From assembly GCA_026710325.1 (NCBI GenBank), contig JAPORH010000228.1, forward strand, positions 1 to 49,299: DNA of 49,299 nucleotides, written 5' to 3'. Under the pieces are notes generated by a model. The model did no database searches. It saw nothing but the letters and a program-made list of their open reading frames with translations, and had not been told where the DNA came from. This document shows, in pieces, positions 19,269 to 44,249 of the stretch (position 1 is the stretch's first letter; every line of letters begins with the position of its first letter). The DNA comes from Litoreibacter sp. Lineage in GTDB: Bacteria; Pseudomonadota; Alphaproteobacteria; Rhodobacterales; Rhodobacteraceae. The position numbers and the translations under genes were made by a program.

Positions 19269-19967
19269 ATGATGCGCAAGCTGCTGACACATGCATTGGC
19301 CGGGTTCCTGGCGCTCGCCCCGCTGGAGGGTGCGCGGGCGGATGTCGTGGTCGAGCTTTACACATCGCAAGGCTGCAGCTCCTGCCCGCCTGCCGATGCG
19401 CTGCTGGAACAGTTGGCAGCGCGCGACGATGTGATCGCCTTGTCTTTGCATGTAGATTACTGGGATTATCTGGGCTGGCAGGATGCGTTTGCAAACCCGG
19501 CCTTTACTAAGAGGCAACGCGGATATGCGGCGCGCGCCGGGTCTTCCATGATTTACACCCCGCAGATGGTGATTGGTGGGCGCGACCATATCGTCGGCAC
19601 CAAGGGTATGGAGCTATCTGATCTTATTGCGAAACATAGCGCGCAGGCTGCGCCTGTGACTTTGACGCTCGATCGTGCGGAAAACAGGTTGCGCGTCGGG
19701 GCTGATATATCCGCGCCACCAACCGGCGAACTCGCAGTCTTCCTTGTGCATTACAGCCCGTCTGAAACCGTGAAGATCAAACGCGGTGAGAATGCGGGTC
19801 GTGAGCTGACCTATCACAACGTGGTCACCAATTGGACGCTGCTAACGACCTGGGATGGGGCCGAGCCCTTGGCACTTGAGACCGAACTGGCCAGCGAAAA
19901 CCCTGGTGTCGTGATCGTGCAGGATGGACGCGTTGGCCCTGTACTGGCAGCGCAGAAAATCGACTAG
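19269..19967 (+). CDS. DUF1223 secreted thioredoxin-like protein
   Basis: The 232-residue protein has a signal peptide (MMRKLLTHALAGFLALAPLEGARA). The mature start VVVELYTSQGCSSCPPADALL carries a CSSCPP redox-like CxxC motif typical of DUF1223. The core continues with VDYWDYLGWQDAFANPAFT and YTPQMVIGG. The family is assigned a thioredoxin-like fold in the periplasm; function is unknown. Start is at ATGATG 19269 after GGAATAGGAAAA; an in-frame extension to 19074 overlaps the previous gene and is rejected. Its stop overlaps the convergent acyltransferase stop by four bases. Confidence 0.87.
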   Translation: MMRKLLTHALAGFLALAPLEGARADVVVELYTSQGCSSCPPADALLEQLAARDDVIALSLHVDYWDYLGWQDAFANPAFTKRQRGYAARAGSSMIYTPQMVIGGRDHIVGTKGMELSDLIAKHSAQAAPVTLTLDRAENRLRVGADISAPPTGELAVFLVHYSPSETVKIKRGENAGRELTYHNVVTNWTLLTTWDGAEPLALETELASENPGVVIVQDGRVGPVLAAQKID

Positions 19968-20884
19968 CGGCCAAACAGGCTTTGACGCCACTCTTCCTGC
20001 TCGGGCTTCCAGCGACGATGGATCCAGAACCATTGATCCATGTTTTGCCGCACCAGCGCTTCCAATGAGTCGTTGAGCGCCTGTGTCATTTCCGCTGGCG
20101 TCGAATGCGGGATGGGGGCTTCGCATATCACCTCGAAATCGAGCCCGTTGGCCTGCCGAATGCCGTAGGTTGGCACCACCAGCGCATCATATTTTAAAGC
20201 AAGCTCGGCCGCTGACAGTGCAGTTGGCGCAGGTTTGCCAAAGAAAGTAAGCGACGCCCCGTCGCGCATGTATTGATCGATCAGAAAGCCGCCCATATTG
20301 CCCGCGCGTAAGAATTTCAAAAGAGCCGATAGGCCGCGGCGGCCGCGAGGGAAGACCGGTGTGCCGATCTTTGAAATCGCGGCCACGTAGTGATCATTGA
20401 AATAGCCATTGTTCATTTCGCGGTAGAGCGCGCCGACGTTGAAGCCCTTTGCAATCAAAGCTGCGCGCGGGGCGTCGTAATTCCCAAAATGACCTGTCAC
20501 GAGGATCACCGGTCGCTTTTGCGCGTGCGCCTCCTCCAGTGCTGCGACGCCGGGGCCAGTCAGCGGGGCATTGGCGAAGCGTTTGGTGAAGCCCGCGCCG
20601 GAGTAGATTTCGATCAGCGTCCGACCCGCATTGTCCGGCACTGCTCGCATCAGTCTTTTGACCTCGGTCTCGGGTAGGTCGGGGCAGGTATAGGCGAGAT
20701 TTTCTTTCACACGGGCGCTGTAGCCCGCCAAAGGGGCCACGAGGCGCGACACAATCCAGCCCGCCATGGGGACCCGAAATCGGTATGGCACAAGCATGGC
20801 GGTGCCGATCAAAGCGCGGATCGCAAGGTTGATGGCGTAGTCGCGCCACCCTCTGCGCCCCGCCGCTGTTTTGCCCAATGCCAT
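19964..20884 (-). CDS. LpxL/HtrB-like lysophospholipid acyltransferase
   Basis: The 306-residue protein is a lipid A biosynthesis acyltransferase-like enzyme. An N-terminal membrane anchor (about 15-35) precedes the catalytic HX4D motif in GHFGNYD. Further blocks are FPRGRRGLSALLKFLRAGN with GGFLIDQYMRDG, and QWFWIHRRWKPE near the C-terminus. Family members add secondary acyl chains to lipid A or acylate other lipids at the inner membrane. It follows the nitrile-hydratase-like alpha gene after a 49-base gap on the same strand and could be co-transcribed, but the functions are not obviously linked. Confidence 0.88.
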   Translation of the reverse strand: MALGKTAAGRRGWRDYAINLAIRALIGTAMLVPYRFRVPMAGWIVSRLVAPLAGYSARVKENLAYTCPDLPETEVKRLMRAVPDNAGRTLIEIYSGAGFTKRFANAPLTGPGVAALEEAHAQKRPVILVTGHFGNYDAPRAALIAKGFNVGALYREMNNGYFNDHYVAAISKIGTPVFPRGRRGLSALLKFLRAGNMGGFLIDQYMRDGASLTFFGKPAPTALSAAELALKYDALVVPTYGIRQANGLDFEVICEAPIPHSTPAEMTQALNDSLEALVRQNMDQWFWIHRRWKPEQEEWRQSLFGR

Positions 20885-20933: not shown

Positions 20934-21569
20934 CTAGGGCTGTTTGGCCAGCCCCGTGCCGATCATGCTGTCGCGCGTGACGAGCTCTGCCAAGGCCTCC
21001 TGCGTCCAGCCGTCGGTGCCTTTGGGCCGTGCGGGCAGAACGATGTAGCGCATGTCGGCGGTGCTGTCATGGACGCGGCAGGTGACGTTGTCTGGCAATT
21101 CGACCCCAAACTCAGCCAGGACCTTGCGCGGCTCCTTCACCGTGCGGGAGCGGTATTCGCGGGTCTTGTACCAATCTGGCGGCAACCCCAGCAGGTTGCG
21201 CGGGTAGCAGCTGCACAGCGTGCAGACGATAACGTTGTGAACGTCCTGAGTGTTTTCCACCGCGACAAGGTTCATCGGGCCGATGTCGAAGCCCATCTCG
21301 CGTGTGGCGTTTGTCGCATCGGCCAAAAGTGCGGCGCGAAACTCGGGCTCGTCCCAGGCGCGGGCAACCACCCGTGCACCATGAGATGGATTGCGCGCAT
21401 CCATTGCATCGATTTGGGCGGCGACCTCGGCGGCCGTGACCTCCCCCTTTTCAATCATCAACTCGCGTACGGCGATCTCCATCACCTGCCAATAGCTCAG
21501 GGGCGCGTCATTGTCGGACCGGTAGGGGTGGCCCGAGGGGGATAGATGGTCGTGATGGTCATGCGGCAT
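20934..21569 (-). CDS. nitrile hydratase/thiocyanate hydrolase-family metal-binding (alpha-type) subunit
   Basis: The 211-residue protein is the metal subunit of the nitrile hydratase family. The metal-binding claw VCTLCSCYPR places cysteines at 116, 119 and 121; CTLCSC is the cobalt-type form, while iron enzymes usually have CSLCSC. GLPPDWYKTREYRSR follows, as in the family. The N-terminus is histidine-rich (PHDHHDH). The start MPHDHH at 21569 lies 11 bases inside the preceding gene, so translation is coupled; a 52-residue extension in the frame is rejected. It is last in a six-gene operon. Nitrile hydratases turn nitriles into amides; thiocyanate hydrolase gamma, a homologue, hydrolyses thiocyanate to carbonyl sulfide and ammonia. 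Substrate is undetermined. Confidence 0.92.
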   Translation of the reverse strand: MPHDHHDHLSPSGHPYRSDNDAPLSYWQVMEIAVRELMIEKGEVTAAEVAAQIDAMDARNPSHGARVVARAWDEPEFRAALLADATNATREMGFDIGPMNLVAVENTQDVHNVIVCTLCSCYPRNLLGLPPDWYKTREYRSRTVKEPRKVLAEFGVELPDNVTCRVHDSTADMRYIVLPARPKGTDGWTQEALAELVTRDSMIGTGLAKQP

Positions 21570-21840
21570 GAGCGGCCTCAATCCAGTGTTCGTAAATCTC
21601 TGCGTCCAGCGTGTCTTCTGGGTGCTCAGCGCCGTCGCCCCAAATTTCCGCCATCGAAAAACGCACGCGGTAGAGCGGTTTTTCTGGGGCAGGGAGCATG
21701 TAGGCGCGCTGTTCGGGGTTTTCATAAGGGCCCAGGACCCGCTCGATTACACCGGTTTTGCCGCGTAGGTAGTGTGGCGTGCGGACATGACCCGGCGGTT
21801 GCAATGCGCGGATGCGAACGGTTTGGCCCGGCTCATACAT
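21559..21840 (-). CDS. nitrile hydratase beta-type subunit, C-terminal (SH3-like) half
   Basis: The 93-residue protein corresponds only to the C-terminal beta-barrel of nitrile hydratase beta. It carries GHVRTPHYLRGKTGVIE (17-33) and LYRVRFSMAEIWG (56-68), the standard family blocks. In ordinary nitrile hydratases this is fused behind a helical N-terminal half; here that half is the preceding gene. Start MYEPGQ at 21840 overlaps the end of that gene by 8 bases, and its own stop lies 11 bases inside the alpha gene. This matches thiocyanate hydrolase alpha (ScnA). The split is clean, with starts and stops in place, so it is architecture and not a frameshift. Confidence 0.9.
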   Translation of the reverse strand: MYEPGQTVRIRALQPPGHVRTPHYLRGKTGVIERVLGPYENPEQRAYMLPAPEKPLYRVRFSMAEIWGDGAEHPEDTLDAEIYEHWIEAAHAA

Positions 21841-22171
21841 CTTGCGCGGCTCCGTAGGTCTCACCGCGGGTGCGGACCTCTTCCATTTTGGAGCCGAGCT
21901 CTTCCAGCGAATAGACGCCGGCCTCGATCAGGTTTTGATTGATGGAGGCGATCCAGCGCTCGTAGTAGCTCATGTCTTCAAAAGCCTGCTCGCCCATATC
22001 TTCCAAGGCTCGGCGCAGCCCGTCGACGGTGAAATGGCCGCGCGCAGCGCCTAGGATCATCAGCGCGTCAACACGTTTTTCCCATAAGGCGAAATCGTGT
22101 TGGTCGGTCGGTACAGGGCCCGCGGCGTCGCCGCCCATGTCGTGCCAACGTCTTTCTGGTGTATCTGTCAT
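21833..22171 (-). CDS. nitrile hydratase beta-type subunit, N-terminal helical half
   Basis: The 112-residue protein matches the helical N-terminal domain of nitrile hydratase beta: RRWHDMGGDAAGPV (7-20), a central helical part, and YYERWIASINQNLIEAGV from residue 69. It corresponds to thiocyanate hydrolase beta (ScnB) or, less likely, to a p14K/NhlE-type cobalt activator, which is also homologous to this domain. An intact C-terminal half encoded immediately downstream, with an 8-base overlap, favours a structural subunit. The start is nine bases after the DUF442 gene and has only a weak ribosome site, so coupling is likely. Confidence 0.87.
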   Translation of the reverse strand: MTDTPERRWHDMGGDAAGPVPTDQHDFALWEKRVDALMILGAARGHFTVDGLRRALEDMGEQAFEDMSYYERWIASINQNLIEAGVYSLEELGSKMEEVRTRGETYGAAQDV

Positions 22172-22180
22172 GTCTACAGG

Positions 22181-22603
22181 CTAGGTCGCCGATTTCTGCT
22201 GTGCAAGCATCTCGATCTGGCCGCGAAGACCTTCGAGCGGGTAGCCTGCTTTGGTGAGCGCATCCATGATATCATCAGTCGGCATCTCGCCCGCTTGCGA
22301 CAATGCCCAGAGAATGGCGGACCGGGTGCCGGAGGCGCAATAGGCCAAGACCTTTCCGTCCACCTTCTGCGCCGTGATGTGCTCCAGCGTCAGCTGGCCA
22401 GAGACGAGCGGGTTGTCCGTCCACCCTATGCCGGCGGCCTCCACGGCTGTTTTGATCGCATCAGGCGCGTCTTCTGGCGCGCTTTCAAATGCAGGGCGGT
22501 TGCAGATCACATGGGTGAAGCCAGCCTCCGCCAACACAGCGACCTCGGCCACGGTGATTTGAGGGGAGACTGCGAAATCGGGGGAGAGGGGTCTGATATC
22601 CAT
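22181..22603 (-). CDS. DUF442/TIGR01244 phosphatase-fold sulfur transferase-like protein
   Basis: The 140-residue protein has the DUF442 (Blh N-terminal) fold: SPQITVAEVAVLAEAGFTHVICNRP, then the active-site loop YCASGTRSAILWALSQ with a CxxxxR cysteine. In Blh proteins of the BigR regulon this domain is fused to a persulfide dioxygenase-type metallohydrolase and takes part in hydrogen sulfide detoxification; here it stands alone. It sits between two YeeE/YedE sulfur-transport genes (4-base gap) and the nitrile-hydratase-like genes (9-base gap), which supports a role in handling persulfide or sulfane sulfur. Confidence 0.86.
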   Translation of the reverse strand: MDIRPLSPDFAVSPQITVAEVAVLAEAGFTHVICNRPAFESAPEDAPDAIKTAVEAAGIGWTDNPLVSGQLTLEHITAQKVDGKVLAYCASGTRSAILWALSQAGEMPTDDIMDALTKAGYPLEGLRGQIEMLAQQKSAT

Positions 22604-22607
22604 GACC

Positions 22608-23033
22608 CTACCTAACGCTCTGAAACCGTGCTGTCACCCGGGGCTGGGCGATCATGGCCGCAACCATTGCGGCAAAGAATATGCCGCCTTGCCAGCCGCC
22701 AAAGCTGAGCGACGCCATTGCAGGTCCGGGGCAAAGCCCTGAAAGCCCCCAGCCGACCCCAAAAAGGCCGGAGCCAATGGCGAGCTGAGGCGTAATCTTT
22801 GCATCCGGGCGGTCGGGAAAGGCCCCGCCCAGGAGCGCTGCCTTGCGCTTGGCGGCGATGCGCCAGGCCATAGCCATGGGCAGAATGGCCCCGCCCAAAA
22901 CAAAGGCGAGCGTCGGATCCCAGTCGCCTAACAGATCGAGCCACCCTTGCACTTTGCGTGTGTCCGTCATGCCAGAAAGCAGCAGCCCCATGCCAAAGAG
23001 CGCGCCGGTGAAAAGTGAAACGACCCCGCGCAT
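22608..23033 (-). CDS. YeeE/YedE sulfur-transport family protein, second half
   Basis: The 141-residue membrane protein has about four spans. The family cysteine motif is at GLSGLCPGPAMASLSFGG, and the N-terminus GVVSLFTGALFGMGLLLSGM also carries the repeat glycine motif. YeeE/YedE proteins such as TsuA import thiosulfate; the two-gene form (PmpA/PmpB-like) pairs two half-size proteins. The start overlaps the first half's stop as ATGA. A longer open frame upstream reads through the first half in the wrong frame and is rejected. The DUF442 gene starts four bases after its stop. Confidence 0.88.
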   Translation of the reverse strand: MRGVVSLFTGALFGMGLLLSGMTDTRKVQGWLDLLGDWDPTLAFVLGGAILPMAMAWRIAAKRKAALLGGAFPDRPDAKITPQLAIGSGLFGVGWGLSGLCPGPAMASLSFGGWQGGIFFAAMVAAMIAQPRVTARFQSVR

Positions 23034-23461
23034 CAGATCAGCCCCAGAATGTGGCGCGCGAGCGCGACTGTCGCGAAGCCTGCGCCGAGGTAGATTAGTG
23101 TCGCCCCGATGCCGCGTATCGACAGGCGGGAGATACCGCAGACGCCGTGGCCCGAGGTGCAGCCATTGGCTAGTCGCGTGCCGAAACCCACGCAAAGGCC
23201 TGCGACAATCAGAACGACGATGTTGGAGGTCAGGTAAGTCGGTGGCGCGGTAAAAGTGATGTTGTATAGCAGCGGCGCGCCGATCAAACCCGCCAGAAAA
23301 AGCAGTGAGTGGGTTCGGGTGCTGCCGCTTTGTGAGCCGTCGACGACGCCGCCAATGAGCCCTGACGCGCCCATGATGCGCCCGTTCAAAAGCAGAAACA
23401 GCGCCGCTGCGCTGCCAATCATGAGGCCGCCGATCAGCCCCCAAACCCATTCGATTGGCAT
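23033..23461 (-). CDS. YeeE/YedE sulfur-transport family protein, first half
   Basis: The 142-residue membrane protein has about four spans and the conserved [19 protein letters not shown] block with two cysteines (about residues 100-118). It opens the six-gene operon; ATG 23461 follows a good TTAGGAGA site. With the adjacent second half it should form one transporter for a sulfur-containing anion or sulfane sulfur. The substrate is unknown. Confidence 0.9.
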
Positions 23462-42911: not shown

Positions 42912-42917
42912 GCTGTG

Positions 42918-43078
42918 GTATCCGACGGGAGAATCGAGTGCGCTCGATGCCGAAGGAGCAACCGCCCCGGAAACTCTCAGGCCCAAGGACCGGCGTATGC
43001 GACAACACTCTGGAGAGAGGCGCGCCCGACGCGTCCGCCGAAGGGATAGCGATCTCAGGCGAAAGGACAGAGGGGGCA
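42918..43078 (+). ncRNA. tandem glycine riboswitch (gcvT element)
   Basis: Two consecutive aptamers are visible. The first (about 42921-42994) has CGGGAGAATCG, GCCGAAGGAGCAA and CTCAGGCCCAAGGACCG. The second (about 43005-43076) has CTGGAGAGAGGCG, GCCGAAGGGATAGC and CTCAGGCGAAAGGACAGAGG. These are the conserved core elements of glycine aptamers, which bind glycine cooperatively and switch on glycine cleavage genes. The element ends about 47 bases before the gcvT start. Confidence 0.95.
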
Positions 43079-43124
43079 TCACCCGCGTGAGGCATCGCTT
43101 CGCGCCTTGATGCCGGAGCGCCTG

Positions 43125-44249
43125 ATGGCCGATCTCAAAACCACCCTGCTGCACAATCTGCACCTGTCTTTGGGGGCCAAGATGGTGCCCTTTGCAGGTT
43201 ATGATATGCCGGTGCAATATGCGCTTGACGTGATGAAGGAACACCAGCATACGCGCGAAAAGGCAGGGCTGTTTGACGTCAGTCATATGGGCCAAGTGGT
43301 GGTGCGCGGCGACAGCTACACTCAGGCCGCTGAGGCGCTGGAACGCTTGATCCCCGTTGATATTCTGAGCCTTTCGGAGGGTCGCCAGCGATACGGGTTT
43401 TTCACCAATGAGGCAGGCGGTATCGAGGATGACCTAATGCTCGCCAACCGGGGCGATCATGTTTTCGTTGTGGTCAACGCGGCCTGCAAGGAGGCTGACA
43501 TTGGGCATATGAAATCCGCCCTCGAACCTGCTGTAAAGGTGGAGGAAATCACCGGCCGCGCGCTTCTAGCTTTGCAAGGCCCGGCCTCTGAGGCCGTGCT
43601 CGCAGCGCTGGATCCACGCGCCGCCGAGATGCGTTTCATGGATGTGGCGACGCTGGATCTAAACGGTGTCGAGGCCTGGGTGTCGCGCTCGGGATATACC
43701 GGTGAAGACGGCTATGAAATTTCTGTGCCGTCCGAAGCCGCCGAAGACATCGCCAAAGCTTTGCTGGCGCATGAAGATGTCGAACCAATCGGCCTGGGCG
43801 CGCGCGACTCGCTTCGGCTTGAGGCCGGGCTTTGCCTCTACGGCCATGATATCGACACGACGACAACCCCGGTTGAAGGGGCGCTGACATGGGCCATCCA
43901 GAAGGTTCGTCGCACGGGTGGAGTGCGGGAGGGTGGCTTCCCCGGCGCAGAAACGATCCTCAAACAGCTCGACACGGGCGCGCCCCGCAAACGCGTGGGG
44001 CTAAAGCCCGAAGGTCGTGCACCTATGCGCGAGGGGGTAGAGCTGTTTGCAACCGAGAACGCTGATGTCCCTATCGGTCAGATCACCTCAGGCGGCTTTG
44101 GCCCAACTGCAGGCCACCCGGTCGCTATGGGCTACCTCGCCACCGCGCACAGCCAAATCGGCACAACAGTCTATGGCGAGTTGCGCGGCAAACGCCTGCC
44201 ATTGACCGTCGCTACCTTGCCCTTCACACCAGCCAATTTCAAACGATAA
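43125..44249 (+). CDS. gcvT: glycine cleavage system aminomethyltransferase GcvT
   Basis: The 374-residue T-protein transfers the methylene group from the H-protein-bound aminomethyl to tetrahydrofolate, releasing ammonia. Family blocks: HLSLGAKMVPFAGYDMPVQY, KAGLFDVSHMGQVVVRG, SRSGYTGEDGYEISVP and LGARDSLRLEAGLCLYGHD. Start MADLKTT at 43125 has a GGAG site at 6 bases; two earlier in-frame starts are less likely. It is controlled by the tandem glycine riboswitch and is the first gene of gcvTHP. Confidence 0.95.
   Translation: MADLKTTLLHNLHLSLGAKMVPFAGYDMPVQYALDVMKEHQHTREKAGLFDVSHMGQVVVRGDSYTQAAEALERLIPVDILSLSEGRQRYGFFTNEAGGIEDDLMLANRGDHVFVVVNAACKEADIGHMKSALEPAVKVEEITGRALLALQGPASEAVLAALDPRAAEMRFMDVATLDLNGVEAWVSRSGYTGEDGYEISVPSEAAEDIAKALLAHEDVEPIGLGARDSLRLEAGLCLYGHDIDTTTTPVEGALTWAIQKVRRTGGVREGGFPGAETILKQLDTGAPRKRVGLKPEGRAPMREGVELFATENADVPIGQITSGGFGPTAGHPVAMGYLATAHSQIGTTVYGELRGKRLPLTVATLPFTPANFKR

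Follow-up and report, generated by a model that had tools for sequence, protein, structure and literature searches.

What does an enzyme of the nitrile hydratase family do when its beta subunit is encoded in two pieces and its genes are packed against genes for sulfur transport and sulfur transfer? The question is raised by a six-gene block on the minus strand of contig JAPORH010000228.1 (assembly GCA_026710325.1) of a Litoreibacter species, whose whole analysed stretch of 49,299 nucleotides (nt) is referred to here as the window. A preliminary description had read the block as an operon of two YeeE/YedE transporter halves, a DUF442 protein and a three-subunit enzyme resembling both nitrile hydratase (NHase) and thiocyanate hydrolase (SCNase), and all six packed genes are indeed present and match the models of the proposed families. 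We find that the enzyme belongs to a split branch of the NHase superfamily that is real, conserved and, it appears, uncharacterised, and that its own metal subunit carries an SCNase-type arginine. We further propose, with a confidence a little short of even, that the enzyme is a cobalt (Co)-type heterotrimer acting on a C-N compound that is small and probably anionic; in this operon the compound could perhaps be thiocyanate, formed by the DUF442 protein from cyanide and imported sulfur.

In the direction of transcription, the block consists of:

23033 to 23461, minus strand: YedE/PmpA-like half of a YeeE/YedE sulfur-compound transporter (PF04143, 27.4 bits; cut-off 27)
22608 to 23033, minus strand: YeeE/PmpB-like half, DUF6691 (PF20398, 128.2 bits)
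22181 to 22603, minus strand: DUF442 rhodanese-like sulfurtransferase with Cys89 in YCASGTRS (TIGR01244, 106.9 bits, cut-off 85.85; PF04273, 81.8 bits)
21833 to 22171, minus strand: NHase/SCNase beta N-half (ScnB-like) with Arg53-Arg54 and YYERW (PF21006, 68.2 bits)
21559 to 21840, minus strand: NHase/SCNase beta C-half (ScnA-like) (PF02211, 82.4 bits)
20934 to 21569, minus strand: metal subunit alpha (NthA/ScnC type) with Cys116-Thr-Leu-Cys119-Ser120-Cys121-Tyr-Pro-Arg124 (PF02979, 267 bits)

Successive genes are spaced by a 1 nt overlap (the ATG of the YeeE-like half shares one base with the stop codon of the YedE-like half), a 4 nt gap, a 9 nt gap, an 8 nt overlap and an 11 nt overlap, and the subunits measure 112 amino acids (aa; beta N-half), 93 aa (beta C-half) and 211 aa (alpha). 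A search of the genome itself (4.19 Mb, 240 contigs) gave one match each for NHase alpha, NHase_beta_N, DUF442 and DUF6691, all of them inside the block. The YedE-like half matches the model of the TsuA thiosulfate transporter only weakly, at 19.5 bits, far below the cut-off of 400.

The split beta subunit is conserved and old

The two beta halves lie in separate reading frames at 21 of 21 loci of the genus (Litoreibacter, 21 genomes including that of the window), in 80 of 80 named relatives (the best 80, L131-L210) and at 43 of 43 split loci of the family, so an error in assembling this genome does not explain the split. The alpha gene lies downstream of the halves at 20 of the genus loci, the remaining one stopping at a contig end, and in 79 of the named relatives, and 444 candidate relatives occur among genome contigs.

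Phylogenetic analysis places all three subunits on the same side of a deep division. In the alpha tree (57 rows), a branch with support of 100/99 sets apart 25 rows of ordinary, alpha-first enzymes, the structures from P. thermophila, Bacillus and P. putida among them; across it lie the split clade of Rhodobacterales, further alphaproteobacterial enzymes of the split kind, Streptomyces and Planktothrix plasmid homologues, and ScnC. The trees of beta-N, with 48 rows, and of beta-C, with 49, show the same division between ordinary and split or SCNase sequences, likewise at 100/99. By this threefold separation, the enzyme did not arise from an ordinary NHase by a recent break, and the proposal that its split is genuine and of the SCNase kind is upheld, with none of the three subunits falling inside the ordinary fused-beta enzymes as a recent split would. 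Being unrooted, the trees are neutral as to whether the split or the fused state is ancestral. The ordinary side of the alpha tree includes 22 loci, of which 19 carry beta in one frame (L028 and L048 among them, on reading), two (L079 and L088) are without a match for one half, and one (L062) is truly split. Fusion can be secondary too, as seen in the SCNase of a Roseomonas marmotae plasmid (L083, 7095-8744), where the two beta parts are joined in one protein of 283 aa. This plasmid-borne scnC stood in as a further true SCNase row; none of the 398 genomes in the phylum sample passes the ScnC model TIGR03887.

The split clade may also account for an earlier observation. Marron and colleagues, in the accessible part of their paper (PMC3323583), describe a Roseobacter CCS2 beta subunit that "appeared truncated" and was replaced; the CCS2 locus (L186) holds both halves in separate frames and in the usual order, so the truncated protein was probably one half of a split beta. 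A 2023 phylogeny reports SCNases and NHases to be enriched in Alphaproteobacteria and, in the parts examined, does not treat split subunits, the arginine or the neighbouring genes (PMC10098168), and a Roseobacter NHase that has been expressed was, according to the portion consulted, picked for having an accessory protein and is presumably of the ordinary type (PMC7321127). In literature covered through titles and abstract openings, with subscription journals mostly outside, we recognised no report on the split clade or on a DUF442 link.

An SCNase-type arginine in most of the split enzymes surveyed

The window alpha reads CTLCSCYPR, and its Arg124 corresponds to Arg136 in the CSCYPR of wild-type ScnC, which bears out the earlier suggestion of a CTLCSC subunit with SCNase-like character. 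By alignment with ScnC, Arg124 probably sits in the substrate pocket. Ordinary alphas have Trp, Phe or His in this column, and two solved structures carry the reciprocal changes, namely W at this position in ScnC (PDB 3vyg) and R in the NHase of P. thermophila (PDB 3vyh). The metal claw itself, CTLCSC, is present, and its Thr is taken by us to mark the cobalt type.

At 40 further family loci, chosen by mid-range alpha score and not at random, the arginine is found in 25 of 25 split enzymes. Trp or Phe takes its place in each of the 15 others (nine of these carry beta in one frame and six are without a match for a beta half). Both halves are found in separate frames at 28 of the 29 best class-level loci, L312 having no beta-C match, and the 28 alphas found there (L309 has no alpha match) read Arg in 24 cases, Val in three, Lys in one and Trp in none. 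The split loci with Val or Lys in this column (L301, L306, L308 and L298) could possibly represent further substrate classes.

Trp was seen at two split loci. One is L062 of the ordinary clade, whose beta is secondarily split into two overlapping frames; its genes run alpha, N, C and are followed by an activator-like frame. Secondary splits thus arise within the ordinary clade without loss of Trp, and splitting alone does not bring Arg. The other, L035, is the only locus of order N-C-alpha seen with Trp, and it has an amidase directly downstream, as expected for real nitrile breakdown. In the beta N-half, Arg54 and YYERW resemble ScnB (YYxRW), and aligned ordinary rows have His, Phe or Trp and other residues; split rows themselves vary in these columns, with Lys54 in L130 and L058 and YYEQW in L035.

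Position between thiocyanate hydrolase and ordinary nitrile hydratase

With ScnABC of Thiobacillus thioparus (PDB 2DD4), the enzyme shares the N/C-split beta and the CTLCSC metal subunit, the Arg of CSCYPR, the YYxRW of beta-N and the side it occupies in the three trees. It differs in that its alpha scores 207.7 bits against TIGR03887, below the cut-off of 291.45, that ScnC pairs only with the Roseomonas plasmid ScnC (100/100) on a long separate branch of the alpha tree, that Leu occupies the column of ScnB Arg90, and that no P15K-type activator is found in the genome. With Co-type NthAB (Pseudonocardia thermophila, Pseudomonas putida, Bacillus), it shares homologous subunits, the CTLCSC claw and a passing score with the nitrile hydratase alpha model TIGR01323, whereas the fused beta, the pocket Trp and the usual second NHase_beta_N gene of those enzymes are absent here and NthAB falls on the opposite side of the trees.

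The beta halves score 72.3 and 60.9 bits against the fused-beta model TIGR03888, below its cut-off of 152.2. Among solved structures, beta-N matches ScnB best (2dd4_B, 38.7 bits), followed by NthB (3qxe_B, 36.7 bits), and beta-C matches NthB with 53 bits (1v29_B) and ScnA with 29.3 bits (2dd4_A); such single best matches are less telling than the trees. By its architecture and one pocket residue, the enzyme is closer to SCNase than to ordinary NHase, and by the tests made here it is not an SCNase; of the earlier comparison with SCNase, the split beta stands, and identity with SCNase itself is not supported.

Two published systems add to this comparison, each as described in the accessible part of its source. 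The toyocamycin NHase of Streptomyces rimosus has three unique subunits of 21.2, 10 and 11.4 kDa (PMC8574189), matching the window subunits in number and size, and SCNase genes have been given in the order alpha, beta, gamma, activator (PMC7193024), against the scnB-scnA-scnC of the preliminary description. A Streptomyces plasmid homologue (L084) is split, with the order N-C-alpha and Arg.

No recognisable activator in the genome

The lack of a visible p15K-type activator, remarked on in the preliminary description, extends from the block to the genome, where none was recognised and the sole NHase_beta_N match is the beta N-half itself. NHase_beta_N occurs in 60 of 120 family genomes. Of these 60, we count 45 as ordinary-type and 15 as split-type; fetched loci or the window itself decided 14 of the latter, and G109 was placed on score and frame length alone. 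Every one of the 15 split-type genomes has exactly one such match; two or more, taken as beta plus activator, are present in 37 of the 45 ordinary-type genomes, and the remaining eight have one. A His-rich alpha N-terminus was considered as a substitute metal loader and rejected, because histidines are no scarcer at that end of ordinary alphas: with rows lacking a recognisable motif dropped, the mean is 6.06 over 31 ordinary rows and 4.85 over 85 split rows.

Linkage and origin of the sulfur genes

In all 21 genus genomes, beta-N is immediately preceded by a DUF442 gene, which shows 55-78% identity to the copy in the window, so the adjacency is not a peculiarity of one strain. The YeeE half is found at 11 of these loci and the YedE half at 10, one gap being a contig end. 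DUF442 adjoins the enzyme in 21 of the best 80 named relatives, namely 17 Litoreibacter or close kin, two Jannaschia, Thalassobacter stenotrophicus and one uncultured bacterium, and at 3 of the 43 split family loci (1 of 18 in one set, the congener L033, and 2 of 25 in a further set). A DUF442 gene is present in 259 of 290 family genomes, which points to a general role, and linkage at so few split loci means that the substrate of the clade at large cannot be read from the sulfur genes. Within the genus, the linkage is a conserved trait, and the putative chemical logic behind it is plausible.

The most serious alternative is that the sulfur genes are bystanders, a module that landed upstream in an ancestor and has been kept by a shared promoter and by inheritance, a reading that we consider well worth entertaining, if not probable. 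YedE-YeeE-DUF442 is a common module that has been recruited once or twice: of the 28 best family DUF442 loci besides the window and its congener, inspected with flanks of about 1.5 kb, two adjoin an NHase, and 15 of the other 26 carry the trio in a row without one. Furthermore, L263 (genome G084, which is in neither NHase match list) holds DUF442, EamA and LpxL homologues and no NHase genes, as if these had been lost; the linked DUF442 genes together with L255 and L263 form one side of the DUF442 tree (97/89), and a single origin of the linked genes, by one recruitment with losses, is not rejected by the approximately unbiased (AU) test (p = 0.056). A purely passive association is harder to reconcile with the NHase tree (107 loci, 22 with DUF442), on which the linkage requires two changes in separate clades, and with the persistence of DUF442 in every genus genome, even though the YeeE half was not found at 10 of the 21 loci. 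On the DUF442 tree, the NHase linkage requires three changes. Independent double recruitment of DUF442 was considered as a proof of function and is not established, given the AU result.

As to what the DUF442 protein might do, the closest described case is Blh of the bigR operon, with which it shares the DUF442 domain. In Blh, the domain is fused to a persulfide dioxygenase in a sulfide-detoxification operon, whereas the window protein is free-standing and precedes an NHase-family trimer. The sources, as far as accessible, report that the DUF442 domain of Xylella Blh converts thiosulfate and cyanide to thiocyanate in vitro (PMC5823870) and that a Cupriavidus DUF442 protein has rhodanese activity (PMC6441731); by motif, Cys89 in YCASGTRS is presumably the counterpart of their cysteine in the window protein (compare C94 in PMC6441731).

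Proposed function and its rivals

We propose that the three small genes yield one heterotrimeric (or larger) Co-type enzyme, in which alpha would hold the metal on CTLCSC and the two beta halves would close the active site, and which would mature without a recognisable P14K/P15K-type activator. With Arg124 in place of Trp, the substrate would most likely be a small anionic or strongly polar C-N compound and not an ordinary hydrophobic nitrile. For this genus, the likeliest concrete route is that the YeeE/YedE halves may import thiosulfate or another sulfane-sulfur compound, that DUF442 may transfer the sulfane sulfur to cyanide to give thiocyanate, and that the trimer may then split thiocyanate by hydrolysis, releasing carbonyl sulfide and ammonia. 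Both the cyanide route and the choice of thiocyanate as the true substrate are speculative, and the enzyme does not depend on the sulfur linkage, since its relatives exist without adjoining sulfur genes. The most elaborate version, a full operon for cyanide detoxification and nitrogen scavenging in which DUF442 makes thiocyanate from cyanide and imported sulfane sulfur and an activator-free three-subunit cobalt enzyme hydrolyses it on the spot, within a wide alphaproteobacterial branch of which SCNase is one specialised twig, strikes us as distinctly unlikely.

Several observations weigh against the thiocyanate proposal. From the sulfur genes come the gaps in the YeeE half within the genus, the rarity of the DUF442 linkage across the family and the apparently general role of DUF442 noted above. 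From the enzyme come the passing TIGR01323 score (259.7 bits, cut-off 249.85) in an alpha that falls short of TIGR03887, and Leu52 of beta-N, which occupies the column of ScnB Arg90, presumably the second pocket arginine; two pocket arginines reportedly control the selectivity of SCNase. The toyocamycin enzyme, likewise of three subunits, has a neutral nucleoside nitrile as its substrate. Finally, weaker second NHase_beta_N matches score 21-45 bits, and a diverged activator could therefore have been missed.

If thiocyanate is not the substrate, the trimer might have a different small charged C-N compound as its substrate, one and the same in every member of the Rhodobacterales that carries it; candidates are cyanide (giving formamide), cyanate, cyanoacetate and beta-cyanoalanine (giving asparagine), and the sulfur genes would serve something else. 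The many genera that have the clade and keep its Arg without adjoining sulfur genes are in accord with this explanation, which we nevertheless think somewhat unlikely: no single one of those substrates is positively favoured, and the DUF442 linkage is strictly kept in the genus. That the trimer is an unusual but ordinary NHase, hydrating algal or environmental organic nitriles to amides with Arg only tuning specificity, is unlikely, because Arg replaces Trp, Phe or His throughout the split family loci surveyed and in most class-level alphas, and no amidase occurs in 14 scanned neighbour genes of Arg-type loci (a minority of the neighbours) where Trp-type L035 has one, even if TIGR01323 is passed, alpha finds its best solved matches among NHases (208.5 bits for 1v29_A, with ScnC reaching 171.5) and a three-subunit NHase is known.

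Neighbouring genes and other split enzymes

A seventh gene follows alpha on the same strand, 49 nt downstream:

19964 to 20884, minus strand: lipid A acyltransferase homologue, LpxL-like (PF03279, 136.9 bits)

An LpxL homologue lies downstream of alpha in 61 of the 80 named relatives; it is a frequent neighbour with no evident role in the enzyme. A fliG homologue is found upstream of the split NHase genes at 44 of the 80 named loci, never together with DUF442. No regulatory RNA was detected at the operon at Rfam gathering scores, the sole Rfam match in the window being a glycine riboswitch aptamer (42916-43002, plus strand, 56.1 bits) upstream of the open reading frame at 43107-44249.

Other split enzymes occur in varied surroundings. 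Close to the Roseomonas plasmid SCNase are the cobalt uptake genes CbtB/CbtA and an exporter of the TauE type. L086 and L087 have the order C-half, alpha, N-half and adjoin DUF302 and cobalt or nickel transporters, with an aquaporin also in the neighbourhood of L087, and a Planktothrix plasmid enzyme (L085, 3051-6236) stands directly behind an asparagine synthase gene, perhaps as part of a biosynthetic cluster. A Litoreibacter relative (L110, genome G171) has a second, diverged split NHase locus with CSCYPRS.

Implications

If the proposed function is correct, many marine alphaproteobacterial enzymes now named nitrile hydratase (alpha) or SH3-like protein (the halves) would differ from ordinary nitrile hydratases in substrate class, and one such enzyme would be tied to a sulfurtransferase family able to make thiocyanate. 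The split branch would offer a natural test of the Arg/Trp switch, which solved structures present only as engineered single changes, and a model for activator-free cobalt loading, and these bacteria may be a marine source of carbonyl sulfide.

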